Source of the DNA: a virus
Reading direction: 5' to 3' (one strand)
IMG/VR virus record: IMGVR_UViG_3300019850_000189
Coordinates: 1-64,000 of that record
DNA: 64,000 bases
Each line of letters begins with the position of its first letter. Position 1 is the first letter of the stretch. The position numbers and the translations under genes were made by a program. Under the pieces are notes generated by a model that did no database searches, was not told the DNA's origin, and saw only the letters and a program-made list of their open reading frames with translations. This document shows, in pieces, positions 131 through 43,729 of the stretch.

Positions 131-140
131 CTTATCTTTA
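131..140 (-). promoter_or_regulatory. AAAGATAA-class promoter candidate
   Basis: TAAAGATAAG on the minus strand, 18 bases upstream of the ATG at 113. The same element and spacing recur upstream of the paralogue at 3354 and, in variant form, upstream of the portal and other genes. It overlaps the stop codon of the 138-623 gene. Promoter role is inferred from recurrence only. Confidence 0.45.
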
Positions 141-623: not shown

Positions 624-650
624 TGTGTAATCCTATTATATATTCTTTTT

Positions 651-1055: not shown

Positions 1056-1067
1056 TTAATTTTCCCT

Positions 1068-2919: not shown

Positions 2920-2943
2920 TTAATAAGCCTTTTGAATTTATCT

Positions 2944-3354
2944 CTACGGATGTTGACCCAAGCCAGCCACTCGCTTACCATTTTTGTAAAGAACATGTCT
3001 ATATAATTTGCCATTATCATACCAACTTTTATATTCGCCATTTAACTCGCCGTTTTTATAAAAACAATGAACAGTCAATTGAGCCTTACTATTCCATTCT
3101 TTATATTCACCATTCAATTTGCCATTTTTATGAGATGCATGAGCCCATAATTGACCATTATCATACCATTGTTTATATTTACCATTTAATTTTCCCTTCT
3201 TATAAAATGTATGAATCCATAATTGACCATTACTATACCGTTTTTCATATTCACCTTCGCCATGAAAGCCATTCAGGAAAAAGCCGGCAGTTGAGAATTT
3301 GTCCCAGCCAACTTTGAATAAGTTTTTGATGTATTGCTTTCTAAGATCTTTCAT
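2944..3354 (-). CDS. YwqK/MORN-variant repeat protein, 4 repeats
   Basis: 136 residues: family head (MKDLRKQYIKNLFKVGWDKF) and four 24-residue units, ending RVAGLGQHP. Unit 2 has a degenerate ASHKNG in place of the usual FYKNG. Preceded by a TAAAGATAAG element 18 bases upstream and a spacer almost identical to that before the 113 start. Confidence 0.8.
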   Translation of the reverse strand: MKDLRKQYIKNLFKVGWDKFSTAGFFLNGFHGEGEYEKRYSNGQLWIHTFYKKGKLNGKYKQWYDNGQLWAHASHKNGKLNGEYKEWNSKAQLTVHCFYKNGELNGEYKSWYDNGKLYRHVLYKNGKRVAGLGQHP

Positions 3355-3430: not shown

Positions 3431-5110
3431 CTACTTTTTTATATATACATAATTTCCGCAATCCCAGATCCGGTCCCAGCCATTTAGTTGCATATTTTGC
3501 CATTCAGTTAATATGGGATCAAATATATCTAATTTCTCTCTCAATTTGTGTTTCTGAAACTGAATTCTGGAGTATCTTTTACCATTATTCACATAGTAAT
3601 AATTTGGCTTGCTCAAATGTGAGAATTCAAAGTTGGCTTGTTTATAAACTTCGCCTGTAAAATATCTAGCATCAGCGTAAGTTATGATACTTCCATCTAT
3701 TTTGCTAATCAGTCTACTAAAACCACCTACTACAGATACTCCCTTTTTGTTCGCAAATCTAATTATTTCACAGTCAAAACCAGATTTATATCTTGGCTTT
3801 CCTATTATAATTAAAGACAGCAATTCTTTATCAAACAAACCTAATTTAATAGAGCCTCCTTTATAACCCTGTAGATGGTTATCCTCCATAAACTCTCTGG
3901 CATGACTTGTCCCAACTGTTTTCACCTGTAGTTTTCTGGCATAAAATATTTTATTTTCTATTCCCAATTTATTAAGTATTATTGACTTAACTATATTCTG
4001 TTTGTCAATCCATTCATCTTCAAATATATGAATGAGATTTATGTTGTGCTTCTTAGCCAATTCTGTTTTATGTAAATGATAGCCCTTGCCCTTTTGACCG
4101 ACTATTTCACCGTGCCAGTATAAACCATCAAATTCGATGCCTAATTGAAAACCTGGCAGGAAAATGTCAATTTCTCTCTTTTCTATTTTTATATTTCTTT
4201 TTATATCTAAATTATATGACTTTAGCCAATTCTCTATATCATCTTCATATTTGCTCGTATTATTTAGTTTAGGAAAACAATTCGGGCATCTTGGAATTTT
4301 GCCACTGATTAAATTATCCTCAAAAATTGTTCCACATGTAAGGCATTGCCATTTATATTTAGCATATATACCCCTATAATCATCTACATTAAACAACGGC
4401 CTAATCTTATCTGACAATTTGTCGACAAGGCTATTATAATACTTTATAAAATTTGTTTGCCTTGTTTTGTCTTGAATATCCTTGGATTGAGCAGGATTTT
4501 CTACGCCATATCTTTCTAAATTAGTTTGCTTTATCTTTCTCTGTATTCTTTTAGATTGACTGAAATAAGGAACACCATAGTTTTTTTCAAGTGTTTGAGA
4601 TGCCTTTTCTCTAATTTGAGCATCCTGCATTGGATTTTCTACGCCATACTTTTTAAGATTAGTTTGCTTTACTTTTTCCTGAATTTTTTTCGATTGAAGC
4701 GGATAAGCTACACCATATTTTTTAATATTAGTTTTCTTTATCTTCTCTTGAATTTGCTTTGAACCAAATGGATTTTCAGAACCATATTTTTTAAGATTGG
4801 TTTGTATTGCCTTTTTCTTAACTTGCTTATTTTGCGCGCTGCTAGGCGCGCCATATTTAACAATATTAGTTGCTTTAATTTTTTCTTTTATTGTAGATGA
4901 AGCAAAAACATTCAAAACTCCGTATCGTTGCTTAATAGTATCTTCTAGAAGGCATTTACCACATAAAGGTTTAAGAGCTTTCTTTCTATTTTTATAAATC
5001 CTTCTGAATTCCTTACCACATATTTTACAGGTGCCATAAAGCACAGTTTTATATGAAAGATGAGTTGTAGGAGTGATTTCTATTTTTTCGTTACTTTTCA
5101 ATATATACAT
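3431..5110 (-). CDS. Free-standing homing endonuclease, Vsr-like nuclease
   Basis: 559 residues. N-terminal CxxC...CxxC zinc-binding pattern (about residues 31-55), then about seven repeats around the phrase TNLKKYGVENP that are typical DNA-binding modules of this phage family, then a second CxxC pair. The C-terminal nuclease domain has EIDIFLPG, LGIEFDGLYWHGE and LIHIFEDEW, the conserved blocks of the Vsr-like (EDxHD) homing endonucleases often found with inteins and fractured genes. It likely cuts an allele lacking it, promoting its own spread. Paralogues at 5288-7162 and 41175-43028. No Shine-Dalgarno precedes the ATG; an ACATATATA motif lies only 6 bases upstream, so the message may be leaderless. 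Confidence 0.85.
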   Translation of the reverse strand: MYILKSNEKIEITPTTHLSYKTVLYGTCKICGKEFRRIYKNRKKALKPLCGKCLLEDTIKQRYGVLNVFASSTIKEKIKATNIVKYGAPSSAQNKQVKKKAIQTNLKKYGSENPFGSKQIQEKIKKTNIKKYGVAYPLQSKKIQEKVKQTNLKKYGVENPMQDAQIREKASQTLEKNYGVPYFSQSKRIQRKIKQTNLERYGVENPAQSKDIQDKTRQTNFIKYYNSLVDKLSDKIRPLFNVDDYRGIYAKYKWQCLTCGTIFEDNLISGKIPRCPNCFPKLNNTSKYEDDIENWLKSYNLDIKRNIKIEKREIDIFLPGFQLGIEFDGLYWHGEIVGQKGKGYHLHKTELAKKHNINLIHIFEDEWIDKQNIVKSIILNKLGIENKIFYARKLQVKTVGTSHAREFMEDNHLQGYKGGSIKLGLFDKELLSLIIIGKPRYKSGFDCEIIRFANKKGVSVVGGFSRLISKIDGSIITYADARYFTGEVYKQANFEFSHLSKPNYYYVNNGKRYSRIQFQKHKLREKLDIFDPILTEWQNMQLNGWDRIWDCGNYVYIKK

Positions 5111-5287: not shown

Positions 5288-7162
5288 CTACATATTTTGC
5301 CATTCGGATAGTTTATGATCAAATATTTTGAGGCGCGCTGATAATTTATGCTTTTGAAATCCAATACGTGAATATCTATTCTTATAATCTGTGTAATAAT
5401 AATTCGGAGTGCTTGTATTTATATATTTGAAACCAGCAGATTGATAGCTTCTACCATTAAAATATCTAAGATCCGCGTAGCTAATAATAGAACCATCGTA
5501 GTCTAAATGTGATATTAATTTAGAAAAAGCGCCCGGTATTCGGTAATTAACCTTAGTAGCAAATCGCAGCAATTCGAATTCAGCCGATTTATTATACCTA
5601 GATTTACCCAATGTAATTATTGCCACTATATTGTTTTTATAAAATAGCCCCAGTTTTATTAAAGACGGAACATATCCCTGCAGATGATTTTCTTCTAAGA
5701 AGTTTCGTGCCATTTCTATATCTACTTCTTGAGTGTCACATGTTCGCGCAAATATCTTATTTTCAATAATCCCAATTTTGTTCAATATGATAGACTTCAC
5801 TATATCTTGTTTTTCTATCCATTCATCTTCAAATATATGAATTAAATTTATGCCGCGGGCTCTCATTAGGTTAGTTTTATCTAAATGATAATTTCTATTT
5901 TTCTTGCCACCAAGTTCGCTATGCCAGTACAGACCATCAAATTCTATTCCTAAATTGCAATCAGGAAGATAAATATCTATTTCGCTATTGTCAATTCTAA
6001 TATTTCTTTCTACTTTGGCATAGCGCTTCAACCAATTCTCAATTTCGTCTTCATAACGGCTAGTATTTGTCAGAGGAGGAAAACAACTCGGGCATCTTGG
6101 AATTTTGCCATCTTCCAAATTATCCTCAAATTCAATGCCACATTTAACGCAGCGCCATTTATATGCGCCATTTATGCCATCATATTCATCAATATTGAAC
6201 ATTGGGGTAACTAAATTTTTAAGCCTATTTCCACTTATTAACTGATTATATAGTCTTATTTTACGAGCTCGTGACATCTTATTTCTTATCGATGGGACTT
6301 GCGCTGTGTGAGGCCTACCATATTTTAATAAATTACTCTGTTCTATTTTTATTTTAATGGCCTTGGAAGCAAACACATTATCAACACCATATTTAGCCCT
6401 AACCGTATCTCGTATTCTTTTTCTAATATCTGAACTGCCAAAAGGAGATGGATGACCGTATCTATCGATATTTGTAGCTTTTATTTTATCTCTAACAGGA
6501 GAACAGGTTTTGCTGGGCCAATCAACGCCATATGTGTTCAAACTGGTGGCTCTGACTCTGTCCTTGACGGCAGCATTCATCATTGGGTTTTCTACGCCAT
6601 AATGTTTTAAGTTGGTTTGCTTTATTTTTTCCTTGACAGAATCCAATTGAAGTGTGCTCTTAACTCCATACTTTTTTAAGTTTGTTTTAATTGAGCTACT
6701 TACGGCTTTCTTTACGTTTCTTTTATTTCTAACTTTTGGCAGCTTCAACATGCAATCAGTGCCATATCTTTCCAACAATGTCTTTTTCGTTTTTTCTTCT
6801 ACTTCTTTTCCATGAAGGCTGCTTGCGTTGCCATATTTCTTTATATTAGTTTGCTTGACTTTTTCCTTTATGCGGCCGGATTTCATTGGGTGTGAAAAAC
6901 CATACTTCTCAATATTAGTTTCTATACGTTTTTCTATTGTAGATGGTAACTGTGCTGAATTTTCAACACCATACTTTTCCATTAAACGATATTTTCGGCT
7001 GCAGTTTGTGCAAAGCTGTTTTAAGCGTTCTGGTTTATTTCTATATTGTCGCCTAAATTCTTTTCCACACTCCTCGCAGACCCCACCTATAACAGTCATG
7101 AATTTCAACTTCGTGTTGGGTGTTAGCTCCCGTCTTTCATTACCCTCTATAACATACATCAT
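5288..7162 (-). CDS. Free-standing homing endonuclease, C-terminally truncated
   Basis: 624 residues, same architecture as the 3431-5110 protein: CxxC zinc-binding patterns, about ten KYGV-type repeats, and the Vsr-like nuclease blocks EIDIYLPD, LGIEFDGLYWHSE and LIHIFEDEW. It stops at a TAG (5290-5288) right after SEWQNM. The sibling reads Q at that codon and continues LNGWDRIWDCGNYVY. Here the frame after the TAG still encodes LNNWDRIWDCGNNLYKRA before a TAA at 5233-5231, so a nonsense mutation has removed an 18-residue tail. A good Shine-Dalgarno (AAGGAG) precedes the ATG. Activity without the tail is uncertain. Confidence 0.85.
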   Translation of the reverse strand: MMYVIEGNERRELTPNTKLKFMTVIGGVCEECGKEFRRQYRNKPERLKQLCTNCSRKYRLMEKYGVENSAQLPSTIEKRIETNIEKYGFSHPMKSGRIKEKVKQTNIKKYGNASSLHGKEVEEKTKKTLLERYGTDCMLKLPKVRNKRNVKKAVSSSIKTNLKKYGVKSTLQLDSVKEKIKQTNLKHYGVENPMMNAAVKDRVRATSLNTYGVDWPSKTCSPVRDKIKATNIDRYGHPSPFGSSDIRKRIRDTVRAKYGVDNVFASKAIKIKIEQSNLLKYGRPHTAQVPSIRNKMSRARKIRLYNQLISGNRLKNLVTPMFNIDEYDGINGAYKWRCVKCGIEFEDNLEDGKIPRCPSCFPPLTNTSRYEDEIENWLKRYAKVERNIRIDNSEIDIYLPDCNLGIEFDGLYWHSELGGKKNRNYHLDKTNLMRARGINLIHIFEDEWIEKQDIVKSIILNKIGIIENKIFARTCDTQEVDIEMARNFLEENHLQGYVPSLIKLGLFYKNNIVAIITLGKSRYNKSAEFELLRFATKVNYRIPGAFSKLISHLDYDGSIISYADLRYFNGRSYQSAGFKYINTSTPNYYYTDYKNRYSRIGFQKHKLSARLKIFDHKLSEWQNM

Positions 7163-7242: not shown

Positions 7243-8754
7243 TTATGGACTGGCTGTTCTAAAGTCAACATCCATAAGACCATATAGTAACTCACCCAAT
7301 GGAACTTTGACCAAACCATAACGAGCAATAAAGCCACGCCTTGGAGTGAAATCATTAGGCCCATAAATTACAGGGGTAAGCTGAGTTACATAAGGAGCAT
7401 AAACTACGCCAGCACCAAATGGTGATATCGGGCTCTTGTGGCCTAGAAGAATTTTCTCTTCTGGGAACAAAGGGTCCTTATATACATCAAATTTACCAGC
7501 ATAATTACCAGCCTTAACTATACCAAGGCCACCTGTTGCTGTAACAGGATTAGGAATAAAACCTCTGAGAACTTCTAGCTGAGATGAAATCTTAGTAGAT
7601 GTAACAACCCAATTAGCAGGACCGATCTTACTCTTTCTATAAATCTCGTTAGATGTTTCAACGATTTTATTTACTAATGCAAGATGCCTGTCAAGGAAGT
7701 TACCTACTGTGTTGTTGTTGGAGTCCCATCTCCAGTTAAACTTATCCTTGGTTGCTGCACTGAACATACATTTTCTTACTATCTCACGGTCGATCTCAGC
7801 GATCATTTCGTTCGATACAAGAGAAGTAAGTTCTGCTTCGGCGTTCAAGTTATGATAAGCTTTTAGGTCCTGCTCAGCTTCATTTGACCAGTGAGCTTTT
7901 AGCTTTCTGGTTTTAGCTACGACAGGAATAGAGGTGATGGTTATTTTCATCTCCGGAATATCTTCGGAGAACTCCATGTCGATCTCATAATTGATCTCGA
8001 CTTTGAAGCCATCACTATTAAGAGCGTTTGTTATTGTAACATTGTTACCATTCATGCCGGTTACTGTAAAATCTGTGGATACATTGCCATAGACATCATA
8101 GACAACACCAGCACTTGTGCCGGCAGTACCTGTGAAGCTATAAACAACTTCGCCACCAGTTTCGCCAGTGTCAAGATTAGTAGCAACTTCGCGGATGATT
8201 GTGCCTTCTACAGCAGCTGTACCGCTAAGCGCAGCAGCCCACTTCATAGAAGCATATGTGTGACCTGCGGTCAGAGTATCCATTGCGAATGTATACGGTG
8301 CACCAGTGCTACTAGCAACAAACGGACCTACAACTTGTTTTGAATAGTAAGGTGAGTAACCTTGCCAACCTTCATCCGGAACCTTTAAGGGAGCGCTTGC
8401 TGAAAATGCAGAATATTGAGATCCTTGAGCTACGTTACCCTTTTCAGTACCAAACACGTACTTAAGATAAAAAATTACTGCTGCCGGACCAGCCATGGGC
8501 TGAACGGAAACAATATTGTTGGCTATCAAATTCGGAAAGACTCTCCTTACGATAGGAAGCATGATCTTCTGGATACCAACAACATCACTAGTTCCTGTGT
8601 TGTTACCCGCTTCTAAGAGGTACTCAGCCTCATTTTCAAGGAGCATAGCTGTATTGATTTTTGTATATTTCTCATCAATACCCTCCAAGAAAGGCTCCCA
8701 CTTAGATAATAGGCGACCCTCTTCCTCTTTGAGAAGTCTGCGTTTATCTACCAT
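7243..8754 (-). CDS. Major capsid protein, gp23-like
   Basis: 503 residues. It forms the capsid shell (HK97 fold in this family). The N-terminal region carries the T4 gp23-type signature: TGTSDVVG (53-60), LPIVRRVFP (66-74) and VSVQPMAGP (82-90). The segment before it ends AEYLLE (E48) then AGNN, a hydrophobic-x-E site expected to be cut by the prohead protease to release a 48-residue propeptide. It is last in the T4-ordered set portal, protease, scaffold, capsid, and is followed by a strong terminator. A short copy of its N-arm occurs in the protein at 34158-34328. Confidence 0.92.
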   Translation of the reverse strand: MVDKRRLLKEEEGRLLSKWEPFLEGIDEKYTKINTAMLLENEAEYLLEAGNNTGTSDVVGIQKIMLPIVRRVFPNLIANNIVSVQPMAGPAAVIFYLKYVFGTEKGNVAQGSQYSAFSASAPLKVPDEGWQGYSPYYSKQVVGPFVASSTGAPYTFAMDTLTAGHTYASMKWAAALSGTAAVEGTIIREVATNLDTGETGGEVVYSFTGTAGTSAGVVYDVYGNVSTDFTVTGMNGNNVTITNALNSDGFKVEINYEIDMEFSEDIPEMKITITSIPVVAKTRKLKAHWSNEAEQDLKAYHNLNAEAELTSLVSNEMIAEIDREIVRKCMFSAATKDKFNWRWDSNNNTVGNFLDRHLALVNKIVETSNEIYRKSKIGPANWVVTSTKISSQLEVLRGFIPNPVTATGGLGIVKAGNYAGKFDVYKDPLFPEEKILLGHKSPISPFGAGVVYAPYVTQLTPVIYGPNDFTPRRGFIARYGLVKVPLGELLYGLMDVDFRTASP

Positions 8755-9688: not shown

Positions 9689-10612
9689 TTAGTCCTCTTT
9701 AGCGAACTTGGTAATAGTTTTTGTAAGAGTTTGCGGATTATAGCCTTTATATCCGATCTTCTCCATTATTTTGTAAAGAATATCATCTCCATATTCTTCT
9801 TGCACCTTTTTAAGTTTTCTTTCAATCAAGCCAATTTTAACAGTTTTATTTCCATTCTTGGCTTCTAAATGCCAATGATGACTAATGTGATTCAAAAACG
9901 TACCATATGAATCATAACCACTTTCCTTTAAATAGAAACGCGCACCATCAGCGACGCCTATATACTCTTTTTCCAGGTCTACAGCGACATTTTCTAACAT
10001 GTCATCAAGTACATCCTCCACCACTGTGCCAAGTGGAATTTTTGTTTCTTCGAGCTTTTCTTCTTTATGCTCATATACTGCTTCTGGATAGGCGTTTGGA
10101 GTAGATGGATCAGAAACAATATCAAAAGTAACCATTTTGTAATCCCCCGCGACCTCATCAACTCCGTTGTTCTTTTTCACGGTACCAAACCCTCTAGATG
10201 AGATCCCCAATTTAATACCACTTTTGAGTAGCTCCTGCAATACACGTCCTGATGGAGTTTCTAATACGGTAGCTTCGCCGTAAACTTCTCCAGTAGGTTG
10301 TATAGAAAGTTTTGTTACCAGATGTGAAACTTTATCCAAATGAATCCTTGCATCAGAAGGATGATCGAGTTCACCTAAAATTCTTTTTTCATTTATGCCT
10401 TCCTGTAATCTTTGTACTTCTCTTTCAAGAACGGATCTTGGATAAACTCTTCCATTACCATTTTTAACATCGGCCTGTTGAAAAATTCCCTTCAGCCTAT
10501 ATGCTTTAACGGTATTCTCTTCATCTTTATCCTCAACAAGCTCATACTTTAAATTCATTACATCTTGGATAATAGGCATTTCTTCAGTTATGATGTTTTT
10601 ATCTCTCGCCAT
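9689..10612 (-). CDS. Prohead core protease, gp21-like
   Basis: 307 residues. It cuts scaffold, capsid propeptide and internal proteins during head maturation. Family motifs are visible: NGNGRVYPRSVLE (51-63), GELDHP (80-85, His84 likely catalytic) and GISSRGFG (136-143, Ser138/139 likely nucleophile), as in T4 gp21 and herpesvirus-type assemblins. T4 gp21 prefers cleavage after [LI]-x-E. Several small proteins in this window start with a leader ending in such a site. Gene lies between gp67-position protein and scaffold. Confidence 0.88.
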   Translation of the reverse strand: MARDKNIITEEMPIIQDVMNLKYELVEDKDEENTVKAYRLKGIFQQADVKNGNGRVYPRSVLEREVQRLQEGINEKRILGELDHPSDARIHLDKVSHLVTKLSIQPTGEVYGEATVLETPSGRVLQELLKSGIKLGISSRGFGTVKKNNGVDEVAGDYKMVTFDIVSDPSTPNAYPEAVYEHKEEKLEETKIPLGTVVEDVLDDMLENVAVDLEKEYIGVADGARFYLKESGYDSYGTFLNHISHHWHLEAKNGNKTVKIGLIERKLKKVQEEYGDDILYKIMEKIGYKGYNPQTLTKTITKFAKED

Positions 10613-11964: not shown

Positions 11965-14538
11965 TCATTTCTTTTTATTATTAATTCCTCTAAATTCTCC
12001 ATGGAGGAACTGGTTTTGATATGTGTTGCTGCGCATCGTATTTGATATGCCTTCAGAAACATCATACTTAAGATTATCTTTGTCCTTATTTGACTTTTGC
12101 TTAACATATTTTATCATTTTCAATATATCATATTTATTCTCGAGCAAGAACTCCTTATCGCCAATTGTTATTGTTTTCCCTGCCACTTCTGGGCCGGCCG
12201 GAGCTTCGGGAGCTTCGGGAGCTGCTGGAGCTGCTGGAGCCGCTTCCGGACCAGCTTCAGCACCAGCTTCTGGTCCGGCTGGCACCTCACCAATTCCACC
12301 AGCCGTACCCGGCACTGCTCCTAATTCTCCGGCACCAGCTCCTCCACCGGCTGGAAGTGCAGCGCCAAATCCCTGAGCTCCACCACCAGCAGTCTGTTGC
12401 TGTAATGGAGATGCCAGTTCTAATTGCATATCTGTTTCCAGATCAGTAATTTGCTTATCTGAAAACTTCATAATATTCTTATATATCCATTTTTTAGGCA
12501 GAAAATTTTCTATTGACAGAATAGTACTTACCAAATTAATTTTTTGTGTTACAACCTCTAATTCAAGCAACTCAGCTATATTGGATGGAGGCGTTAATTC
12601 AATCTGGAAATTTCTGACATCCTGTCCCCTAAATCCTTGTAGTGTCAAAGACACTATAGCTATTTTTTCGAGGCCTTTCATTATGTGCCTCTGAATACGC
12701 TCAACAGACCTTGAAAATTTAATATCCATCTGACTCAAGGCATTTCGCGTATCCATTCCACCGCCTTCCTGCATATACTGAGGCGGTATGTGCATCGTCT
12801 TTAATAATTTATCTCTAAAGTATTTTGTATCATCAATTTCATTAAGTTGGCGGCCACCTTGAAGCACATCTATTCGGGTCCCCTGTCCTGCGGTTGCTCC
12901 TGATCTTACCGGAATCCAAAAGTCTTCCAATATAGATAAAGGAGTCGCTTTTTCGTTAATCTTACCGGAGTTCTTAACAAATGTTCCTTCATAGGAACCA
13001 ATGGCAAAATTATGATAATTCGCAATAGAGAGAGTTCCAGTATCTAATGTGTAATTTAGTTTTTCAACTTTTACAACTTTGTGATTAATTACGCGCTTAT
13101 ATTCTGGGTCTGCCCACATGGCAATTGCTCTTTCCGACATCATGTCGGCGTGTAATTGAAAATGTTCATTGCCAGACATTACTTGTATATTAGTGGGATT
13201 ATTATTTTTCTTATTAAGATCGCGATGATGCCTGACAGATATTGCCCCTTCTTCTTTCATATTATTAAAATCTTCTTGGAACATAAAGTCACTGATAGTA
13301 TGTGTAAAAACATACTGATTAATTGATGGGTCTACTACTAAATCATATCCTTTTATTTTATACTTGTCATCTGACTCTTTTCGATACAGGGGCATAAGGC
13401 TGTCCCCTTTGTTCAACTGTTCCGCAGGGACATAGGTTCCATCTCGCATGAGAAACTTATGGTCTGGAGTTACAGTAAACGATTGCCCATCATCTATAGT
13501 TACTTTTACTACAGGTGTAGATTTTCGTGTAATGCCTGCCCACTTAACATGCCCTGGAACAATCTTGTTGTTATTATCTCTATCTACAGAATATGTCCAT
13601 AGATCTTTGCCATTATCGAATTCATTAATAATATCTTGAAGTGGCAGAATTCTACCATCTAAAAGAGGAATTTCTGTGTCAAGAGCTAAACACGCTGGAT
13701 CGATATATTTCTTTTTTCTGAACTTTGCTTTAATTCGCTCTATGAATTTTTCCGCTTCGGGTGTGGAGAGTGTGCCGACATCAATATAAAATACCCTTTT
13801 CTCTGGTGCGCGCTCAAGTCTATATACGAGCATCGCATCTTCCATCAATGACAATTGTTTCCAAGTCCTGCGACCTGATTCTAAAACGGACCTTCCATAA
13901 GGAGCAAATATATTATCATCAATCCTAAAGTGTACAACTTCCCATGGCTGCAACTTTATTTTATTCGACTTTTCTGGATGCGCATAAATGGTTCTTTGAG
14001 ACCCCTCTTTAGCAACATTCTTAGCTACCGCAAAATTAAGTAAATTGCCATCAACCTCCATTCGTTCGACATTCATAGGAGGTAAATACTTAAGCGATAC
14101 TATTTCTTTCTTTTTATCATCGACAATTATTTCATAGAAATTATCGCCATACTGACATGTGCCATAAAATATGCGCCATAAATCTGCATTCATGTCTAAA
14201 TTATCAAAGAACGTGTGATTCAGATTTTTAATGATATCATCATTACTGGAACTTATGTCCAATACTTGTTCATTATTATTAAGCTGACTACCATCATCAG
14301 CATACGTAACCAATCCTAAATCTAGTTCCGGAACAAGAACCATATTTTCATAATCTTTATATCGTTCTCTACGCTCATTGGATACGGTTATATAAGTTGT
14401 CATCCAATGGTATGTATCCGAATCTATAAAATCGCGATCCTTCAGTGTTTGGATAGCTCTACTGGAATCAAGATCCTTTGCTGTTATTTTAAGCTTATTG
14501 AAAAAATCTTGATATTCTCGACTACGTTTGCTGGCCAT
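11965..14538 (-). CDS. Portal protein, gp20-like, with intein
   Basis: 857 residues as translated; 616 after removal of a 241-residue intein (residues 283-523). The exteins match the T4 gp20 portal type: an N-terminal domain with DLWRIFYGTCQYGDNFYE (about 119-136), a stem/wing region with RVFYIDVG (248-255), and after the intein DTKYFRDKLLKTMHIPPQYM (570-589). The portal forms the dodecameric DNA entry ring and prohead initiator. The C-terminus has a long Gly/Ala/Pro linker (about 720-790), unusual for portals. Preceded by a TAAAGATAAT motif 18 bases upstream; followed by the gp67-position gene. Confidence 0.88.
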   Translation of the reverse strand: MASKRSREYQDFFNKLKITAKDLDSSRAIQTLKDRDFIDSDTYHWMTTYITVSNERRERYKDYENMVLVPELDLGLVTYADDGSQLNNNEQVLDISSSNDDIIKNLNHTFFDNLDMNADLWRIFYGTCQYGDNFYEIIVDDKKKEIVSLKYLPPMNVERMEVDGNLLNFAVAKNVAKEGSQRTIYAHPEKSNKIKLQPWEVVHFRIDDNIFAPYGRSVLESGRRTWKQLSLMEDAMLVYRLERAPEKRVFYIDVGTLSTPEAEKFIERIKAKFRKKKYIDPACLALDTEIPLLDGRILPLQDIINEFDNGKDLWTYSVDRDNNNKIVPGHVKWAGITRKSTPVVKVTIDDGQSFTVTPDHKFLMRDGTYVPAEQLNKGDSLMPLYRKESDDKYKIKGYDLVVDPSINQYVFTHTISDFMFQEDFNNMKEEGAISVRHHRDLNKKNNNPTNIQVMSGNEHFQLHADMMSERAIAMWADPEYKRVINHKVVKVEKLNYTLDTGTLSIANYHNFAIGSYEGTFVKNSGKINEKATPLSILEDFWIPVRSGATAGQGTRIDVLQGGRQLNEIDDTKYFRDKLLKTMHIPPQYMQEGGGMDTRNALSQMDIKFSRSVERIQRHIMKGLEKIAIVSLTLQGFRGQDVRNFQIELTPPSNIAELLELEVVTQKINLVSTILSIENFLPKKWIYKNIMKFSDKQITDLETDMQLELASPLQQQTAGGGAQGFGAALPAGGGAGAGELGAVPGTAGGIGEVPAGPEAGAEAGPEAAPAAPAAPEAPEAPAGPEVAGKTITIGDKEFLLENKYDILKMIKYVKQKSNKDKDNLKYDVSEGISNTMRSNTYQNQFLHGEFRGINNKKK
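12970..13692 (-). mobile_element. Intein in the portal gene
   Basis: 241 residues. Begins with Cys (CLALDTEIPLLDG), block B is TVTPDHKF, block F is NYHNFAIG, and the end is GTFVKN followed by extein Ser. The penultimate residue is Lys, not the usual His; such inteins can still splice. Between the splicing blocks is VRHHRDLNKKNNNPTNI with a later HFQLH, an HNH-type homing endonuclease core. Insertion follows the portal residues KYIDPA. Confidence 0.9.
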
Positions 14539-16072: not shown

Positions 16073-17710
16073 TTATTTACTAAGCCATTCAATAATGGCT
16101 TTTTCCGACATATATCCTTCTTCTGTATATTCGCCACCTAATTCTTCATTATCATATTGGTGTATATCTGGGCGGTCATTCTCATCTTTATAAAATTGCT
16201 TTAGAGCTTTGTCATTATATTTAAACGCTACATTATCGCGATTGCTTGTTAATCCCATTGGCGCAAAAGAACTTAGCATTGGCCGTATGAATGTTAAAAT
16301 AGCTAAAGACATAACAAGATCGTCATTATAGCCCTTGAGGGCTTCTGGCTTATTGCCATGCCATATGAAAGTTTCTAATTCCGCCAGAAGCCTTGGCGAT
16401 ACTAATTTATATTTATCTTGTTCAATACTGTTTATTAAACTATCTATAATTTGTGGCCGCGTCTTTACTGTTGTTATCCAGCCAGTTTTGCCCTTTTGTG
16501 TTGTATATACATTTGTATAAGGATCCTTTTCATCCTTGAAAACCCGCTCAAAAACAGCCAAACCATAACTATTTGATTCAATAATAACATAGGCATCATT
16601 ATAGTAACGAGCGACCGCTTTTATTACATTAGCGTATTGAAGACTCGAGACTGATTTATTTTTGTACTCGCAAACCTGTTTATTATCGCTCAATCTTACT
16701 ACATGAAACGCAGAAGCATCCTGTTCATTTCCAGTGCCGACATCAGCGGCCAGTATATATCTTTCTGAAGGCTGGGATGGGTCCCATATCCATAGGCCAG
16801 GGATTGAACTGTATTCATCCTTTAACAGCGCTTTCGCGAATTCGCTATTACCAGGAAATCTATACTTAACAACAGGATCTCGAACTTTTTTCTTCAAATA
16901 TCCGAGTGTTTTGCCAGAAATAACCGTATCGCCAGAACCAAGAAACTCGCACAAAACTTCAGATCTAAATTTTCTGTCTCCGAGTTGTCTTTCCTGTTTT
17001 AGAAGCCATTTGTCATCACGACCTGGAAATTCTCTCCAATTTATATCAATAAAGTGAAAATCATTCAGTTCCTCTTTTGCTTCCTCATACACTTTGTGAT
17101 ATAAATTGCCTATTCCATTTGTGGTAGATATAAGTATAGCATTGCCACCTGTTGATAGAGTTGGCCATGCTGCTGCCCATATATCATCGGCATATTCTTG
17201 AAATGCCACCTCGTCAAGTATCAATAATGATAGAGACTTGGATCGACCAGCCGTCCTAGTTTGTGGAACTGAGAAAAAACTTGATCCATTAATCAAGTTA
17301 AGGCCGTGCTTTGAACGATCCTGAGAATCTATTCTCAAGAATTCAGGTAATCTATCATATGAATATCTGGCTTTATCTTTGAATTCCATAGCTTCAGTGT
17401 CTCTAATGGAAATAATAAGAACTGTTTTATCATTATTGAAATTTATAAGCCATAAACCATAACAAGCTGTTAGCCATGAAAGGCCCATCTGCCTGGGTTT
17501 CTTAACTATATTAAACTGGTACTTCATGAAATCCTCGAGGGCCCTGCGCTGATAATCAAAAAGCTTAAATGGCAATTCTCCTTTTATAGGATCGATAATA
17601 TAACAATAATTATCAATGAAATATATAGGATCTTTTTTGCAGCGCTTGAACTCCTCTATCATATTTACGGCAATTATACGGCCGTCATTCAGTTTTACCT
17701 GATGTTTCAT
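16073..17710 (-). CDS. Terminase large subunit, gp17-like
   Basis: 545 residues. It is the ATP-driven motor and nuclease that packages DNA into proheads. ATPase domain: adenine-binding FDYQRRAL (51-58), Walker A-like KPRQMGLS (71-78), Walker B LLILDEVAF (162-170) with catalytic Glu, coupling motif STTNG (195-199). Nuclease domain of RNase H fold: AADVGTG (321-327, metal-binding Asp323), a VIIESNSYG block, and NDDLVMSLA near the C-terminus. Length is usual for the family and no intein is present. No small subunit is recognised next to it. Confidence 0.93.
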   Translation of the reverse strand: MKHQVKLNDGRIIAVNMIEEFKRCKKDPIYFIDNYCYIIDPIKGELPFKLFDYQRRALEDFMKYQFNIVKKPRQMGLSWLTACYGLWLINFNNDKTVLIISIRDTEAMEFKDKARYSYDRLPEFLRIDSQDRSKHGLNLINGSSFFSVPQTRTAGRSKSLSLLILDEVAFQEYADDIWAAAWPTLSTGGNAILISTTNGIGNLYHKVYEEAKEELNDFHFIDINWREFPGRDDKWLLKQERQLGDRKFRSEVLCEFLGSGDTVISGKTLGYLKKKVRDPVVKYRFPGNSEFAKALLKDEYSSIPGLWIWDPSQPSERYILAADVGTGNEQDASAFHVVRLSDNKQVCEYKNKSVSSLQYANVIKAVARYYNDAYVIIESNSYGLAVFERVFKDEKDPYTNVYTTQKGKTGWITTVKTRPQIIDSLINSIEQDKYKLVSPRLLAELETFIWHGNKPEALKGYNDDLVMSLAILTFIRPMLSSFAPMGLTSNRDNVAFKYNDKALKQFYKDENDRPDIHQYDNEELGGEYTEEGYMSEKAIIEWLSK

Positions 17711-33068: not shown

Positions 33069-33959
33069 ATGCTATCAGAACAAGGAAAAGGAGAAGGCGC
33101 CATTGGAAAAATACCATTTGTGCGCACGTTAGCTGGAGCCGGAAAAATTGCAGGTCAAACACTTGGTCTGCCACTTGCAGGGTTTGTTTCAGCGAGCAAT
33201 GAAAAAGGAGAAAAAAGTCTATTTAAGCAACTTGGAGCTCAGAGCGGCAAATTATTTAGGACTGGCGCAAAGGCTGTGAAAGTTGCTTATGCTTATGCGG
33301 TAGCTCCAAAGCATGTTAGAAATGCCATTAAAAAATTGTGGAGGGCATGGCCCAATTTAAAAATAAGATTGATGAATATATGGGTATTGATATATCCCGA
33401 TATGCATAATCCAAATACATATAGTGTAGTTTATTACGCTCCGGATGGTTCAAAGCTTGTCCAGACTTCAGTTAGCAAAGAAGAGGCCGAAGAAATGAAA
33501 GTCCAACCGGAAACCGCGGGAGCCAAGGCTATAAGAAAGATAGAAGGCGGAAACAAAGCTAAAAAAAAGATAGTAGGCAACAAAGCTAAAAAAAAGATAG
33601 TAGGCAACAAGGCTATAAAAAAGATAGAAGGCGGTAACAAAGCTAAAACAGAAGCAGAAGATATTAAAATCGAAATTCGTTCAATGGGTATGGAATATGA
33701 TCAATTAGATATGATAGAAGAAGAAATAATGAATGAAGCCCTTGGTCTTCCTCCAGCAGCAGCACTTCTGGCTCGATGGAAATATGGTAAGTCAGCTACA
33801 TTGGTAAGATATAGAATTTGGATCCTACAATTTTTTGATAGTGCCCGTAATAAAACTTTTATAAGTATTTATGATGCGTTGCCACAGAAGCTGGAACCGG
33901 GTGAAGAACTTAATCCAATTCACAAATTCGCATATCAGGGCAAGCAGGAAATGATTTAA
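33069..33959 (+). CDS. Basic protein with lysine-rich repeats, possible internal protein
   Basis: 296 residues. Begins MLSEQGKGEG (an L-x-E near the start), then a basic Gly/Ala-rich region, an aromatic beta segment (VLIYPDMHNP), a central set of imperfect repeats around NKAKKKIVG (about 155-195), and a C-terminal domain (YRIWILQFFDSARNKTF). Overlaps the next gene by one base. The basic repeats would suit DNA contact in the head; no known domain. Confidence 0.5.
   Translation: MLSEQGKGEGAIGKIPFVRTLAGAGKIAGQTLGLPLAGFVSASNEKGEKSLFKQLGAQSGKLFRTGAKAVKVAYAYAVAPKHVRNAIKKLWRAWPNLKIRLMNIWVLIYPDMHNPNTYSVVYYAPDGSKLVQTSVSKEEAEEMKVQPETAGAKAIRKIEGGNKAKKKIVGNKAKKKIVGNKAIKKIEGGNKAKTEAEDIKIEIRSMGMEYDQLDMIEEEIMNEALGLPPAAALLARWKYGKSATLVRYRIWILQFFDSARNKTFISIYDALPQKLEPGEELNPIHKFAYQGKQEMI
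33530..33650. repeat. Imperfect 24/27-bp coding repeats
   Basis: Units resembling AACAAAGCTAAAAAAAAGAT recur about four times in frame, encoding NKAKKKIVG-like segments in the 33069-33959 protein. Confidence 0.7.
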
Positions 33960-34168
33960 TGAAATTATACAAGGTTTTGAACGAATTAATTGGAGCACCA
34001 ATTGGATTTTATTCCCTCCCATATAGACAACTATCTGGAAGTGAGGGTTATTATGGAAGCGTGAATGCGCCATTTATGCCTCCGCATACAACAGCTAATT
34101 TGGCATATAAAGCAGCTAAATACAAAAAGAAAAATAAAAAGAAAACGGAAAGAAAAAATGAAACTTGA
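33959..34168 (+). CDS. Small basic protein with capsid-targeting-like leader
   Basis: 69 residues: leader MKLYKVLNE (hydrophobic-x-E), a Gly/Tyr/Pro middle, and a strongly basic tail (KYKKKNKKKTERK). Its start shares one base with the previous stop, and its end overlaps the next gene. The leader-plus-basic-body layout is that of T4 internal proteins, which are packaged with DNA and trimmed by gp21. Inference only. Confidence 0.55.
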   Translation: MKLYKVLNELIGAPIGFYSLPYRQLSGSEGYYGSVNAPFMPPHTTANLAYKAAKYKKKNKKKTERKNET

Positions 34169-34328
34169 ACAAGTAATAAAAGAATCAGATTGTAGTACTG
34201 GTTCTACAGATGTTAAAGGAATCCCACAAAGGATGATGCCAATAGTTCGTAGAAAACTTCCCGTCAAGCCCACTAATATAGTTGTTTATGCGAAGAAGAA
34301 AAAGAAGAAAAAAAAGAGAACAATTTAA
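34158..34328 (+). CDS. Small protein mimicking the capsid N-arm
   Basis: 56 residues from the ATG at 34158; a longer upstream frame is possible but this start begins the shared leader. Leader MKLEQVIKE, then STGSTDVKG (13-21) and MMPIVRRKLP (26-35), ending in YAKKKKKKKKRTI. These two blocks align in order and near-exact spacing with TGTSDVVG and IMLPIVRRVFP of the major capsid protein, right after its predicted cleavage site. It could be a minor head protein that docks like a capsid arm, or a fragment-derived gene. Confidence 0.6.
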   Translation: MKLEQVIKESDCSTGSTDVKGIPQRMMPIVRRKLPVKPTNIVVYAKKKKKKKKRTI

Positions 34329-34351
34329 GTGCCAGAATGCTGGAGAAATAA

Positions 34352-34681
34352 ATGAATTTAAAAAAAATTATATCAGAAGTTGATTTTACAGATCCATTTG
34401 CCGGAAATATAGATCGAAACAAAAAAATGGATAGAGAGGGCCTAATTAGAGCAATTAGAATGGATATCGCCGCCGAACACGATGCGGTCGCTCTATATAC
34501 GGCACACGCTCTCGCGACAGATAATGAAACAGCTAAATTAATTTTGTTGGATATAGCAAATGAAGAGCGTGTTCATGCTGGTGAGTTTATGAAGCTTCTG
34601 GATATTTTGACGGATGGCCAAGAGAGCGAACTGCTTTCAAAGGGAGAGCAGGAAGTAAGAAATAAAACTACTGAGGAATAA
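34352..34681 (+). CDS. Ferritin-like protein resembling encapsulated ferritin
   Basis: 109 residues. Leader MNLKKIISE then VDFTDPF, then two helices forming half of a four-helix bundle: RMDIAAEHDAVALY (36-49) and DIANEERVHAGEF (67-79). The likely iron ligands Glu42, Glu72 and His75 have the same 30 and 3 residue spacing as Glu32, Glu62 and His65 of encapsulated ferritin (EncFtn). Such half-ferritins dimerise to build a di-iron ferroxidase site and act inside encapsulin shells. The C-terminus is acidic and lacks an obvious encapsulin peptide; the N-terminal leader may replace it. Rubrerythrin-like is the alternative name. Confidence 0.72.
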   Translation: MNLKKIISEVDFTDPFAGNIDRNKKMDREGLIRAIRMDIAAEHDAVALYTAHALATDNETAKLILLDIANEERVHAGEFMKLLDILTDGQESELLSKGEQEVRNKTTEE

Positions 34682-34682
34682 C

Positions 34683-35090
34683 ATGGAATTATTACGTCTT
34701 TTATCACAGTTAGAAGAACAAATTGCTGGCACGAGTGCGATGGGCGGCCCAGCCAAGAAAACAGAGTTCATGCCTCTGACCAACATTTCAGATTCTATTA
34801 AAAGGCACAAAAAGAAAAAGAAGAAGATATCACATTATATATCACTAAAGCAATCTGATGTTGTGTTGGGCGACGCAGAACGTAAAAACGAAGGCATATC
34901 AGTCGGCCGAGATAAATTCGCTAATGTCAGAAGTAAAGGCAATGAGGAATACACACCCGGAACAAAATCTAAAGCGAAAAATAAACCAAATGAAATAAGT
35001 GGTAGAGAAAGAAAAAAAACAAAAAGAACTAAACTCAATTATTCTGATTTTGATTTCGGAACAGTTGGAATGTTTAACAAATATGTTTAA
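34683..35090 (+). CDS. Lysine-rich protein with leader-like N-terminus
   Basis: 135 residues: MELLRLLSQLEEQIAG (L-E-E within the leader), then low-complexity, strongly basic sequence (RHKKKKKK, RERKKTKRTK) with no predicted fold. Two bases after the ferritin-like gene. Composition suits a DNA-associated internal head protein. Confidence 0.52.
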   Translation: MELLRLLSQLEEQIAGTSAMGGPAKKTEFMPLTNISDSIKRHKKKKKKISHYISLKQSDVVLGDAERKNEGISVGRDKFANVRSKGNEEYTPGTKSKAKNKPNEISGRERKKTKRTKLNYSDFDFGTVGMFNKYV

Positions 35091-38956: not shown

Positions 38957-41074
38957 ATGGCTAACAATTTTTTGATGAGCCCTGGTGTTCTTGTTCAAGA
39001 ACGGGATCAAAGCTCTTACACGGTAACGTCCGCAGCCACACAAGTCGCCATGGTTGGATATGCCTCGAAGGGCCCAGTTGACACGCCAATGCTGGTCACA
39101 AGCGCGCAAGACTTTATTAATAAATTTGGCGCGCCGCCATCCAATAATCCATATATGGGTTTAGCTGCCCTCAAATTTTTCGAGGAAGGCAGTAGACTTA
39201 TTATTAGCAGAGCTGGTTATAATACCAGAGATGTTAGAGGCCTACCCGGCTGGCAATCATCAGGAGAGGTAACATCTAATACTGGCTGGATGGGTAAATT
39301 AACAAAAGCGACCTCTGAAATAGATAGAGCATTACAAACGGCGGCTGTACCATCTATAACAGGCACCAAGGATTTTCAATACGGTCTTACATACCTAACA
39401 GATGTTGACTTCACCCTTAGATACTATAATGATAGAACAGGTGAAAGTAAGACATTTAACGTGAGCGGAGATTTACTTGCTGATCCAGGCCGGACATCAG
39501 TCGCATTATTGGCAAGTGATCTCAATACGTTAATTGGTACGATAACCGGAGCAAGCACTTATTTTGAGTTTTCACAGAGTGGTGCAAATTATTTAATTTT
39601 AAGAATGCCATCCGGTGAGAATGAATATCTTGACAATAAAGCATCAATAAGCATCTCAGGAACTGGCGGCAGCACAACCATCAGCCAACTAGGTTTCTTG
39701 CAGGACAATCGTTCTGCTCATGGTGTAGGCGATGGAACTGGTGCTGATATACCTGCCAGTGGCATAACTGTAACAGCGAAAACAGAAGGTTCTTGGGGAA
39801 ATGATATTACATTAAGATTTTATAGTGAAACCACTTCGCAATTCGATTCAAGTTCAGGAACATTCTTGACTCAAACAATTTATAAAGCTCAGGTTTACTA
39901 TAAGGGCGGCTTGATTGAAACTTTTGATCAGATAGATTGGGAAGATGATTCTTCTGATTATTGGGTTGAGGACTTATTCCCAACAGCTCTTGGAGAGGGC
40001 TCTAATTATATTTCGATAGAGTTTAATACTACGGCTAATCCAAGCTCACCATACACGCCTCCAGAAGATATATCTGCAGATAGTGATGATTTCATCCAAC
40101 TAGGAACGGATGGAGCGGAGGCTACTCAAGGTGCTAATGGTATTCCGATTGTTGATGACACATATGGTTTTAACGCAGAACAGACAGATGCGCTTAATAA
40201 TACAGCTCTTACAGAACTGGATAGAGGTATTAACACTCTAGCGAATTCAGAAACTTGGGAATTTGATGTTGTATTAGTCCCAGGACAATCTTCTTCTGTA
40301 GTAATTAATTCCATTTTCAATCTTGTAATGACCAGAAGAGATTGTATGGCTATTATAGACTCTCCATTTGGTCTTACTTATGAAGATGTGGCTGAATGGC
40401 ACAATGGTCAGGGCCATGGAAATTCAGCAGCATTTAATACTTCATACGCAGCGTTATATTGGCCATGGTTATACGACTATGATGCATATAACAGACAGTA
40501 TGTATGGCTTCCTCCTTCAGGATATGTTGCGAAGCAATATGTCTATACTGATAATGTTTCCGATCCATGGCAGGCTCCAGCTGGCATGACCAGAGGTAAA
40601 ATTACTGCTTTGGATTTAGAACAGTCAGCTTCACAAAGCCAGAGGGATCTACTGTATGGCGAAACAAATGCTGTTAATCCGATTGTCAACTTTGTCGGTG
40701 AAGGTCTCACTATATGGGGTCAAAAGACTTTATTGAGAGACACCAAAGCAACAAATAGAGTTAATGTCAGAAGGCTTTTGATTTATGCTGAAAGATTAGT
40801 CGCTAAGATGGCCAAGTCCTTTGTATTCGAACCAACAGATGAAACAGCGTGGGCTGATTTTACAAGACGGGCAAATGCTATTATGGAGCCAATAAGAATA
40901 AGAAGAGGATTGTATTCTTACAAGGTTGTTATGGATTCAACAACTAATATTCCAGAAGTAATAGATCAAAATAAAATGGTTGGATACATCTTTTTACAGC
41001 CTACAAAAACTGCTGAATTTATTGAGGTGTATTTTACTGTTACATCAACGGGTGATACATTTATTAGTGAATAA
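38957..41074 (+). CDS. Tail sheath protein, gp18-like
   Basis: 705 residues. Forms the contractile sheath. Typical sheath opening (FLMSPGVLVQERDQSSYTV, about 5-23) with VAMVGYASKGPVDTPMLV next, and typical C-terminal core: VNPIVNFVGEGLTIWGQKTL, a VNVRRLLIYAERL block, and YSYKVVMDSTTN with VGYIFLQPTKTAEFIEV at the end. Strong GGAGG. Longer than minimal sheaths, with inserted beta domains (about 120-400) that likely sit on the outside. A homing endonuclease gene on the other strand separates it from the tube gene. Confidence 0.93.
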   Translation: MANNFLMSPGVLVQERDQSSYTVTSAATQVAMVGYASKGPVDTPMLVTSAQDFINKFGAPPSNNPYMGLAALKFFEEGSRLIISRAGYNTRDVRGLPGWQSSGEVTSNTGWMGKLTKATSEIDRALQTAAVPSITGTKDFQYGLTYLTDVDFTLRYYNDRTGESKTFNVSGDLLADPGRTSVALLASDLNTLIGTITGASTYFEFSQSGANYLILRMPSGENEYLDNKASISISGTGGSTTISQLGFLQDNRSAHGVGDGTGADIPASGITVTAKTEGSWGNDITLRFYSETTSQFDSSSGTFLTQTIYKAQVYYKGGLIETFDQIDWEDDSSDYWVEDLFPTALGEGSNYISIEFNTTANPSSPYTPPEDISADSDDFIQLGTDGAEATQGANGIPIVDDTYGFNAEQTDALNNTALTELDRGINTLANSETWEFDVVLVPGQSSSVVINSIFNLVMTRRDCMAIIDSPFGLTYEDVAEWHNGQGHGNSAAFNTSYAALYWPWLYDYDAYNRQYVWLPPSGYVAKQYVYTDNVSDPWQAPAGMTRGKITALDLEQSASQSQRDLLYGETNAVNPIVNFVGEGLTIWGQKTLLRDTKATNRVNVRRLLIYAERLVAKMAKSFVFEPTDETAWADFTRRANAIMEPIRIRRGLYSYKVVMDSTTNIPEVIDQNKMVGYIFLQPTKTAEFIEVYFTVTSTGDTFISE

Positions 41075-41174: not shown

Positions 41175-43028
41175 CTATTTTTTTATTATTTTCGTAAATT
41201 TTAAGTTTCCGCAATCGTATATACGCCAGAATCCTGCTTCATCCATAATTTGAAATTCAGTTTTGTTTTCATTATAATTAGAAAATTTTTTAAGCGCGCT
41301 TTTTCTATATTTGAATCTGTGTTGCCGTATTGATTGTCCGTTGGCTATATACCAATAATTAGGGGCAGTTTCTTTCACCAATTCGAATCCGATTTTTTTG
41401 TATAAATTTCCATTACTCCACCTTCTGTCCGCATAACTGTAAATCTCTACTGGATAGTAATGCTGAATGAAATACTTCAGCATTTTACTTGCTGCGCCCG
41501 GAATGGATGTATCCGGTATGGTAGCGTATCTAGTTAGTTCATAAACATTATCGTTGCTTTTCTTTTGGCCTAACGCAAGTCTAGGTTTTGAAAATGTCAT
41601 AACCGCTACTAATTGAGTATTATAGAACGCTCCAAGATTGATGTTGGCCTTATCACTGCCTTGCAAATGGTAGTTTTCTAAGAATAATGTTTTTTGTTTA
41701 CTATCTATTTCTTGTATGTGGGTTTTTCTGGCTCCAATTGTATTTTTATTAAAGCCAAGTATGGCCTTGAGACGGCTTTTAACTATTGCTTGTTTATATA
41801 TCCATTCATCCTCAAAAATATGAATTAATTTTATGTTGTTGTGAAGGCATTTCTGTGTTTTGTTTAGATGGTAGTATTTGTCTTTGTATAAGCTTGAGTG
41901 CCAATAAAGTCCGTCCAGCTCTATCGCTATTTTATATCGAGAAAGATAGATATCTATTTCTTGCGGCGGAATTATCGATCTTGAATTTGTTACTAAACTT
42001 ATTTTAAATGTTTTTAAGAAATCAGCCAGCTCTAATTCCATGTTAGAAATTCTGCTTGAACGAGGATAACAAAAGGGGCATCTTGGATTGGAACCACCAA
42101 TTAAATTGTCTTCAAATACTTTATTGCACTTAGTACATTTCCATTTTAAAGTGGTTTTTATGCCGCTGTAATCTTTTGGTTTAAATAAAGGCACAGCCTC
42201 TACTATGCGTTGCCCTGTAAATATGCTGTTCAGGAATTTTTGCCTGGATATATCACTAATTTTGTCTTTGACTAATTGGCTTTGCGCTGGGTTTCTCGTT
42301 CCGTATTTCTTTTGACTAGTTGCGACTATTTTAGCTCTAACGGTTACTGATGATAGAGGATTTTCAACACCATATTTCTTTAAATTAGTCTCTTTGACTT
42401 TCTCTTGAATTTCTTTATTTGCTAGGGGAAAGCGAGCACCATATTTCTTAAAATTAGTCATAGCTATTTTTTCTTGAATTTTTGTGCTTGAAAAAGGCAT
42501 TTCAGCGCTGTACCTTTTAAGATTAGTTTGTCTGATTTTGTGTTTTATTATTTCGTTTTGGGCAGGATTCATCACGTCATATTTTTCTAAGCAAGTTGAC
42601 GTCCTTTTTTGAATTATTTCCGGAGCCTGTGAAGGATTTTTAACTCCATATTTTCTTAACCAAGTTTGTTCTACTTTTTTATGTATTTCAGGATTATGGA
42701 GGCTACACTCAACGCCATATCGCTGTAAATTAGTGGCTTTCACTTTATTCTTCACAGCTTTATTTTGCATTGGATTTTCTGTTCCATATTTCGACAAGCT
42801 TGTTTCTTTTAATAAACATTGCCCACATTTAATACAAGGCTCAAAAAACTTTTTGTTATATAAGAATAACTGAGTTGTTTGTTTATTACAAAGGCAACAA
42901 TTGTACACTATTTTATCATTTTTGGCGACTTTTTGTGTTCCGTTGATTATTAAATATTTGTCTTTAACTTCAACTTGATTAACATTTATCACTTGATGAG
43001 TTTTAGAAACTATTACTTGTTTAATCAT
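41175..43028 (-). CDS. Free-standing homing endonuclease, Vsr-like nuclease
   Basis: 617 residues from the ATG at 43028, which has GGAG five bases upstream; the frame opens earlier but without a Shine-Dalgarno. Architecture as in the 3431 and 5288 genes: CxxC pair, about eight KYGV repeats, second CxxC pair, nuclease blocks EIDIYLSR, IAIELDGLYWHSS and LIHIFEDEW, and the intact tail FWRIYDCGNLKF. Antisense to and lodged between sheath and tube genes, a common site type for homing between essential structural genes. Confidence 0.87.
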   Translation of the reverse strand: MIKQVIVSKTHQVINVNQVEVKDKYLIINGTQKVAKNDKIVYNCCLCNKQTTQLFLYNKKFFEPCIKCGQCLLKETSLSKYGTENPMQNKAVKNKVKATNLQRYGVECSLHNPEIHKKVEQTWLRKYGVKNPSQAPEIIQKRTSTCLEKYDVMNPAQNEIIKHKIRQTNLKRYSAEMPFSSTKIQEKIAMTNFKKYGARFPLANKEIQEKVKETNLKKYGVENPLSSVTVRAKIVATSQKKYGTRNPAQSQLVKDKISDISRQKFLNSIFTGQRIVEAVPLFKPKDYSGIKTTLKWKCTKCNKVFEDNLIGGSNPRCPFCYPRSSRISNMELELADFLKTFKISLVTNSRSIIPPQEIDIYLSRYKIAIELDGLYWHSSLYKDKYYHLNKTQKCLHNNIKLIHIFEDEWIYKQAIVKSRLKAILGFNKNTIGARKTHIQEIDSKQKTLFLENYHLQGSDKANINLGAFYNTQLVAVMTFSKPRLALGQKKSNDNVYELTRYATIPDTSIPGAASKMLKYFIQHYYPVEIYSYADRRWSNGNLYKKIGFELVKETAPNYWYIANGQSIRQHRFKYRKSALKKFSNYNENKTEFQIMDEAGFWRIYDCGNLKFTKIIKK

Positions 43029-43042
43029 TATTGCTCCACAAC

Positions 43043-43051
43043 TATATATGT
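43043..43051 (-). promoter_or_regulatory. ACATATATA-class promoter candidate
   Basis: ACATATATA on the minus strand, 14 bases upstream of the endonuclease ATG at 43028. Confidence 0.5.
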
Positions 43052-43146
43052 GTTTGATAAAAAAAAGCATCAATTTTCATTAATTTATTAAGCATATAGT
43101 TGAGTGGTTATTTTTCTTAAAAAGAGCATCTTTTTTAGATTTATGC

Positions 43147-43189: not shown

Positions 43190-43729
43190 ATGCCAATTGT
43201 ATTATCTACGGCTGAACAAAGTATTAAGGAACCCAAACGTCAAAATAGATTTATCCTAAAATTCGACGCAGTCCCGGGTGGTGGCGAAGAAGCATTAGCA
43301 CTTGATTTACTATCCGCAGGCAGACCAAACCTGAGCTTCAACAGTGTTCCTATTAATCGTTTAAATGAACAATTCAAGTTCCCCGCTAATCCAACCTGGG
43401 ATCCAATGACATGTGTTTTCTATGATTATGACAAAGGCAAAGACTCATCGGCGCAGATACTGTGGAGATGGGCACGATCAGTTTATGATCCAGTTACTGG
43501 CGCAATGGGATATGCCACACAATATAAAACCAATTCTACACTGGTTATTTTATCTCCAGATGGATCTATAGCTGAGACCTGGGATTTATTTGGTTGCTAC
43601 CCAGATGCTGTTACTTTTAACGAAGTTAGTTATAGTACTTATGATGCATTACAGGTAAACATGACATTGAATTTTGATTATGCAATATTGCAGGAAGACA
43701 CCAGTCAGGGTAATATACCTTCAGCATAA
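43190..43729 (+). CDS. Tail tube protein, gp19-like
   Basis: 179 residues, the usual tube length. It stacks as hexamers to make the inner tail tube. Typical features: N-terminal basic KEPKRQNRFILKFD, central FNSVPINRLNEQFKFPANPTW-type segment (about 50-70), YDPVTGAMGYATQYK, and C-terminal FNEVSYSTYDALQVNMTLNFDY. GGAGG precedes the ATG; a strong terminator follows. Confidence 0.9.
   Translation: MPIVLSTAEQSIKEPKRQNRFILKFDAVPGGGEEALALDLLSAGRPNLSFNSVPINRLNEQFKFPANPTWDPMTCVFYDYDKGKDSSAQILWRWARSVYDPVTGAMGYATQYKTNSTLVILSPDGSIAETWDLFGCYPDAVTFNEVSYSTYDALQVNMTLNFDYAILQEDTSQGNIPSA

Follow-up and report, generated by a model that had tools for sequence, protein, structure and literature searches.

A T4-like phage of a bacterial host, known from a metagenomic record of 189 kb alone, encodes an EncFtn-type half-ferritin (P0001), which appears to have had its destination changed from an encapsulin to the head of the phage itself; the probability of this explanation as a whole is estimated at about 0.72. 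Since P0001 starts with a head-loading tag of the T4 type, the phage head probably stands in for the encapsulin shell. Positions are given for the window, the whole analysed stretch of 64,000 nucleotides.

34352..34681, + strand: gene of the EncFtn-type half-ferritin P0001, 109 aa (profile, PDB, alignment and fold evidence)
34342..34351, + strand: ribosome-binding site GGAG (34342-34345) and in-frame TAA (34349-34351), read from the sequence
34475..34477, + strand: Glu42, equivalent of EncFtn Glu32 (alignment)
34496..34498, + strand: Tyr49, equivalent of EncFtn Tyr39 (alignment)
34565..34567, + strand: Glu72, equivalent of EncFtn Glu62 (alignment)
34574..34576, + strand: His75, equivalent of EncFtn His65 (alignment)

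The open reading frame at 34352-34681, from which the preliminary description started, is present and encodes 109 aa. An in-frame TAA is located immediately 5' of its ATG, which makes Met1 the first possible start, and GGAG is found 6 nt upstream. The next ATG corresponds to Met26, and initiation there would delete the conserved DPFxGN segment; TAA and GGAG before the ATG therefore assign the nine leader residues to P0001, barring a start at Met26.

P0001 matches the NCBIfam family EncB_fam (NF058679) with E 1.3e-26 and 92.9 bits, above the curated cut-off of 90 bits. Scores below the cut-offs were obtained with Pfam EncFtn-like PF22277 (15.2 of 27 bits) and with TIGR04535 (68.5 of 125 bits), a narrower model than NF058679, also missed by the bacterial encapsulin cargo L002 (107 of 125). 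In the PDB, phmmer identified the Pyrococcus furiosus EncFtn 5n5e (E=7e-13) and Myxococcus xanthus EncC 7s8t (E=1e-12), and identity to bacterial relatives reaches 54%. Family membership is far beyond chance; the product of 34352-34681 is almost certainly a genuine EncFtn protein and, judged by its sequence, P0001 is an EncFtn-type half-ferritin with bacterial kinship.

The 30/3 spacing of Glu42, Glu72 and His75, read earlier as a copy of the EncFtn metal ligands, was recovered: these residues align with the EncFtn ligands and are invariant in relatives. The spacing alone would be weak evidence, and the case is carried by alignment with EncFtns from bacteria, archaea and phages. Residues Arg36, Glu42, Ala45, Tyr49, Glu71, Glu72 and His75 do not vary across 22 aligned proteins from phages and bacteria, and the iron site of Rhodospirillum rubrum EncFtn is lined by the equivalents of P0001 residues 42, 49, 72 and 75 (PMC5012862). 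The AlphaFold model of the P0001 monomer, built with an alignment of relatives, has a pLDDT of 91 and agrees with the half-ferritin fold in two helices that had been proposed. It contains a separate leader helix (residues 3-9) followed by coil, two long antiparallel helices (28-55 and 59-86) and a short third helix (90-107). The top matches of this model in a PDB fold search are all EncFtn, EncC or EncB, the best being 5n5e with TM 0.86 by target; for a second model, of the leader-bearing relative L026, EncFtn was again first.

The N-terminal segment and the genes to which it has to be compared are as follows.

34352..34378, + strand: leader MNLKKIISE, proposed capsid-targeting sequence, with a predicted cut after Glu9 (I-S-E)
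34379..34678, + strand: proposed mature EncFtn, residues 10-109 (alignment with bacterial proteins)
33959..34168, + strand: small basic protein, 69 aa, net +9, Lys-rich, leader MKLYKVLNE
34158..34328, + strand: small basic protein, 56 aa, net +13, Lys-rich, leader MKLEQVIKE
34683..35090, + strand: basic protein, 135 aa, net +14, with a similar, non-matching start MELLRLLSQLEE
7243..8754, - strand: major capsid protein Gp23, E 1.3e-72
9689..10612, - strand: prohead protease of the gp21 type, Peptidase_S77 E 5.5e-26
11965..14538, - strand: T4-type portal (Gp20) with an intein
16073..17710, - strand: terminase large subunit
38957..41074, + strand: tail sheath, on the same strand as the EncFtn gene and 4.3 kb downstream of it
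43190..43729, + strand: tail tube

The T4 internal proteins IpII and IpIII start with MKTYQEFIAE|A, as read from the T4 record. MNLKKIISE has the same spacing of hydrophobic(-6), hydrophobic(-3), hydrophobic(-2) and Glu(0), and it ends in [L/I]xE like the T4 capsid-targeting sequence. T4 gp21 cleaves behind the motif L/I-X-E, and the N-terminal 10 residues of IPIII are sufficient to confer targeting to the head (PMC9026906). The suggestion of a prohead-type leader agrees with this spacing and the I-x-E end, as well as with the presence of a gp21-type protease and Gp23 in the same phage. Bacterial EncB-type proteins mostly start with M-[P/A]-x-F-x-[N/D]-P-F, and in 35 of 37 distinct proteins, from two phyla, the start lies 60-62 residues before the motif EE[KR]xH. 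In P0001 this distance is 70 residues, made up by eight residues preceding the bacterial Met position and a 2-residue insertion. The bacterial initiator Met aligns with Glu9, and a cut after Glu9 would leave VDFTDPFAGN, similar to the bacterial PAFANPFQGN. On this alignment, the phage version is a single 9-residue N-terminal addition, placed exactly at the bacterial start.

Only nine ATG-started frames of at least 50 codons in the 189-kb record have the exact 9-residue pattern, and three of them are the consecutive genes starting at 33959, 34158 and 34352. A looser pattern of the N-terminal helix fits gene starts more often than internal Mets (33/299 vs 35/869, p=2e-5), also when combined with a [hydrophobic]xE site (16/299 vs 13/869, p=6e-4). 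The strict leader pattern is not enriched across the genome of this phage (gene starts 5/311 vs internal Mets 11/930); therefore, the evidence for the leader comes from the consecutive genes, from the looser pattern and from the relatives. The lack of strict enrichment would also fit auxiliary iron handling in the cytoplasm of the infected cell, with an incidental N-terminal helix and no packaging, and the fitting internal Mets illustrate that amphipathic N-terminal helices arise by chance. EncFtns with no recognisable leader are moreover encoded by the Gp23 phages L015 and L018. Against such cytoplasmic function stand the pattern on consecutive genes, the insertion exactly ahead of the bacterial start, the recurrence of leaders around EncFtn in other phages and the position of EncFtn genes among virion genes, so this alternative is considered unlikely. 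Outside the window, a small G-[KR]-F-K-N-K-[KR] protein with the leader-like start MKFKQALKE is encoded at record positions G000:150089-150289 (-); proteins of this type also occur in L026 (10280-10483, MKFYKYIKE) and L019 (2988-3215, MKFKKYLQE), and those of this phage and L026 match with E=8e-9.

Two alignment-guided scans of IMG/VR gave 28 and 58 overlapping loci, together 63 viral EncFtn-like loci with 55 distinct proteins. A single-sequence pattern scan of viral contigs found no EncFtn, and searches of named-phage proteins with the relatives L026 and L035 gave no match. The starts of the relatives' reading frames were chosen mechanically and are clearly too late in L034, L052, L059-L061, L068 and L070. 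Gp23 was found in 9 of 50 EncFtn contigs and Peptidase_S77 above cut-off in 7 of 50, many of these contigs being fragmentary. T4-like leaders of other phage EncFtns include MVNFKDYLTE, MSKFKDYITE, MSRLSNYLTE, MKTFKTLISE and MKKFKEVINE. Among the neighbours of EncFtn, leaders are present on 8 of 12 ORFs in L019 (p=3e-6) and 7 of 23 in L026 (p=8e-5); a leader common to other proteins of the same phage is clear in L019, L026 and L047, and in L062 and L071 the gene adjoining EncFtn has an almost identical leader. The resemblance of EncFtn leaders to those of the same phage is positive overall (p=0.0055) and uneven between loci. In L012, the EncFtn gene (start MDKFIKDLAKKILNE-VQFAD) has the prohead protease gene on one side and the Gp23 gene on the other, all on one strand; in L026 and L037 it is located after the terminase gene.

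Leader-bearing genes near EncFtn include matches to the DnaJ, NUDIX and RimK families. In L019 (185-6559) and L047 (1698-4598), T4-like leaders (MRFKxYLxE, MRLxxYxxE) are present on many consecutive genes, these families among them, and many enzymes may possibly be loaded into the heads of these phages.

In several phages the EncFtn domain is part of a larger protein. Protein gp74 of Eggerthella phage LE2-3 (L004 11356-14202, 948 aa) contains it, its gene being located between those of the portal and the capsid, and in L078, L079 and L081 the domain is internal or terminal in proteins of 438-583 residues. The tripeptide KTA, which precedes several leaderless phage EncFtns and was considered as an alternative processing motif, was rejected, since it is concentrated only in LE2-3 gp74. 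This protein has eight KTA, and a 24-kb stretch has 10 vs 1.9 expected; gp74 is possibly a processed polyprotein. The contig of L023 (G011) carries two copies of Gp23, and its Gp23 and Peptidase_S77 matches each cross one in-frame TGA, possibly due to TGA recoding or interrupted genes.

Since the tail sheath gene follows downstream, P0001 might be a component of the tail or neck that brings iron to the receptor (Ferrojan-type). The sheath gene is 4.3 kb downstream here, and in L020 EncFtn lies about 4 kb upstream of it, as in the window; a virion protein of a Vi01-like phage, called a ferritin by Phyre, has also been read as having a tail function (PMC10892097). The leader and the protease site are, however, signals of head maturation, the gene of L012 lies within the head cluster, and the Vi01-like protein has no detectable relation to P0001, which makes a tail or neck role very improbable.

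No encapsulin gene (PF04454) was found in the 189-kb record, which may be incomplete, or in the 50 other EncFtn-bearing viral contigs, many of which are fragments. The C-terminal encapsulin targeting peptide of the T[V/I]G[S/D/N]L type is absent from P0001 and from all 63 viral EncFtn loci, while each of the 11 bacterial EncFtns encoded beside an encapsulin gene carries it. Loading of P0001 into an encapsulin of the host is hardly credible on this distribution, even though its closest encapsulin-adjacent bacterial relatives (e.g., L002, L094, L096-L099) resemble true cargo. The preliminary description had the leader in place of the encapsulin tail peptide. The peptide is indeed absent and the leader present, but this absence alone is not special, since bacterial EncB_fam proteins encoded away from encapsulin genes also lack the peptide.

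In the phylogenetic tree, one large clade combines P. furiosus EncFtn with phage proteins; P0001, L012, L015, L018 and others are placed among bacterial proteins. The sequences are short, and the tree does not resolve the exact neighbours of P0001; a clade uniting P0001 with L012 is neither rejected nor supported (AU p=0.052). The starred branches require at least five changes between phage and cellular proteins. A 100/99 branch separates leader-bearing EncFtns from one another, and leaders were therefore probably gained repeatedly. It is somewhat favoured that ferroxidases of the EncFtn family were acquired on several occasions by T4-like and other tailed phages and, through a swap of targeting signals, directed away from encapsulins into the HK97-fold heads of these phages. 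The virion would then be the viral equivalent of the encapsulin compartment that oxidises iron.

Packaging of P0001 in the phage head, as judged from leader, protease and gene context, is likely. The leader would bind the prohead core, P0001 would be enclosed as the shell forms, and the prohead protease would cut off residues 1-9, after Glu9. Mature P0001 would form dimers or rings in which a di-iron site is located where the two subunits of a dimer meet, and the packaged protein would oxidise Fe2+. This oxidation could keep ferrous iron from the packaged DNA, and/or P0001 could be ejected with the DNA, handling iron and peroxide early in infection. T4 internal proteins are ejected together with the DNA. 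The chances are about even that the purpose is the shielding of DNA or of the infection from iron damage. R. rubrum EncFtn alone oxidises iron without mineralising it (PMC5012862); therefore, detoxification is favoured over storage, and iron storage in the head would need another component.

The preliminary interpretation is supported in every part that sequence can test. It knew of no described example, and in the open-access literature, which is what the search covered, neither an EncFtn of a phage nor a ferroxidase packaged in a head was found to be described, so novelty is not certain. If the head-loading explanation is true, virions hold a ferroxidase, and this would be a new way for packaged DNA to withstand iron and peroxide or for a phage to deal with host iron on entry; it would also suggest that enzymes of various kinds are loaded into heads by T4-type leaders. 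Encapsulins are thought to derive from phage capsids (PMC8346489); the cargo here appears to have moved in the opposite direction, gaining a phage head-loading signal, and would represent a naturally evolved cargo that exchanged one HK97-fold container for another.

Other features of the window were also annotated. The portal intein (Intein_splicing) occupies residues about 291-513 and has HNH endonuclease-like matches. Six tandem paralogous ORFs at 138-3354 (-) have near-identical starts MKDLR[K/R]QYIK[N/K]LFKVGW, and the one tested had only PHROGs matches of unknown function. The large ORFs 3431-5110, 5288-7162 and 41175-43073 (-) all match one L012 protein (E 3e-32 to 3e-60), which suggests that members of one paralogous family are dispersed in this phage. 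The T4 late promoter TATAAATA gave no signal in the window (14 seen vs 12.2 expected), an Rfam scan of 30-39 kb gave no match, and no tRNA was found in the window.

Among known systems, P0001 belongs to the same family as EncFtn and EncB-EncC (NF058679; 5n5e of P. furiosus, 7s8t M. xanthus EncC and 5da5 of R. rubrum), with the same helices and Glu-Tyr-Glu-His ligands, and shares with the EncB_fam subgroup the N-terminal DPFxGN segment. It differs from them in being phage-encoded, in its 9-residue leader and in the absence of an encapsulin gene and a C-terminal targeting peptide. LE2-3 gp74, of the ferritin-like superfamily, for which no function was reported in the literature found, has an EncFtn domain (40% identity) and likewise lies among head genes, between the portal and major capsid genes, but the domain is contained within a 948-aa protein without a leader. 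A ferritin in a tailed-phage virion was suggested for gp217 of the Vi01-like phage Sajous1 by mass spectrometry and Phyre (PMC10892097); gp217 has no detectable sequence relation to P0001 and was read as part of the tail entry system (PMC10892097). T4 IpII and IpIII resemble P0001 in leader spacing and the L/I-x-E end; a gp21-type protease and a T4-type head are present in its phage, and the neighbours of P0001 are likewise small, partly Lys-rich and leader-bearing. The T4 proteins are basic and DNA-associated and have leaders of 10 residues, whereas P0001, a putative internal protein, is acidic (net -9), of the ferroxidase type and has a leader of 9 residues.
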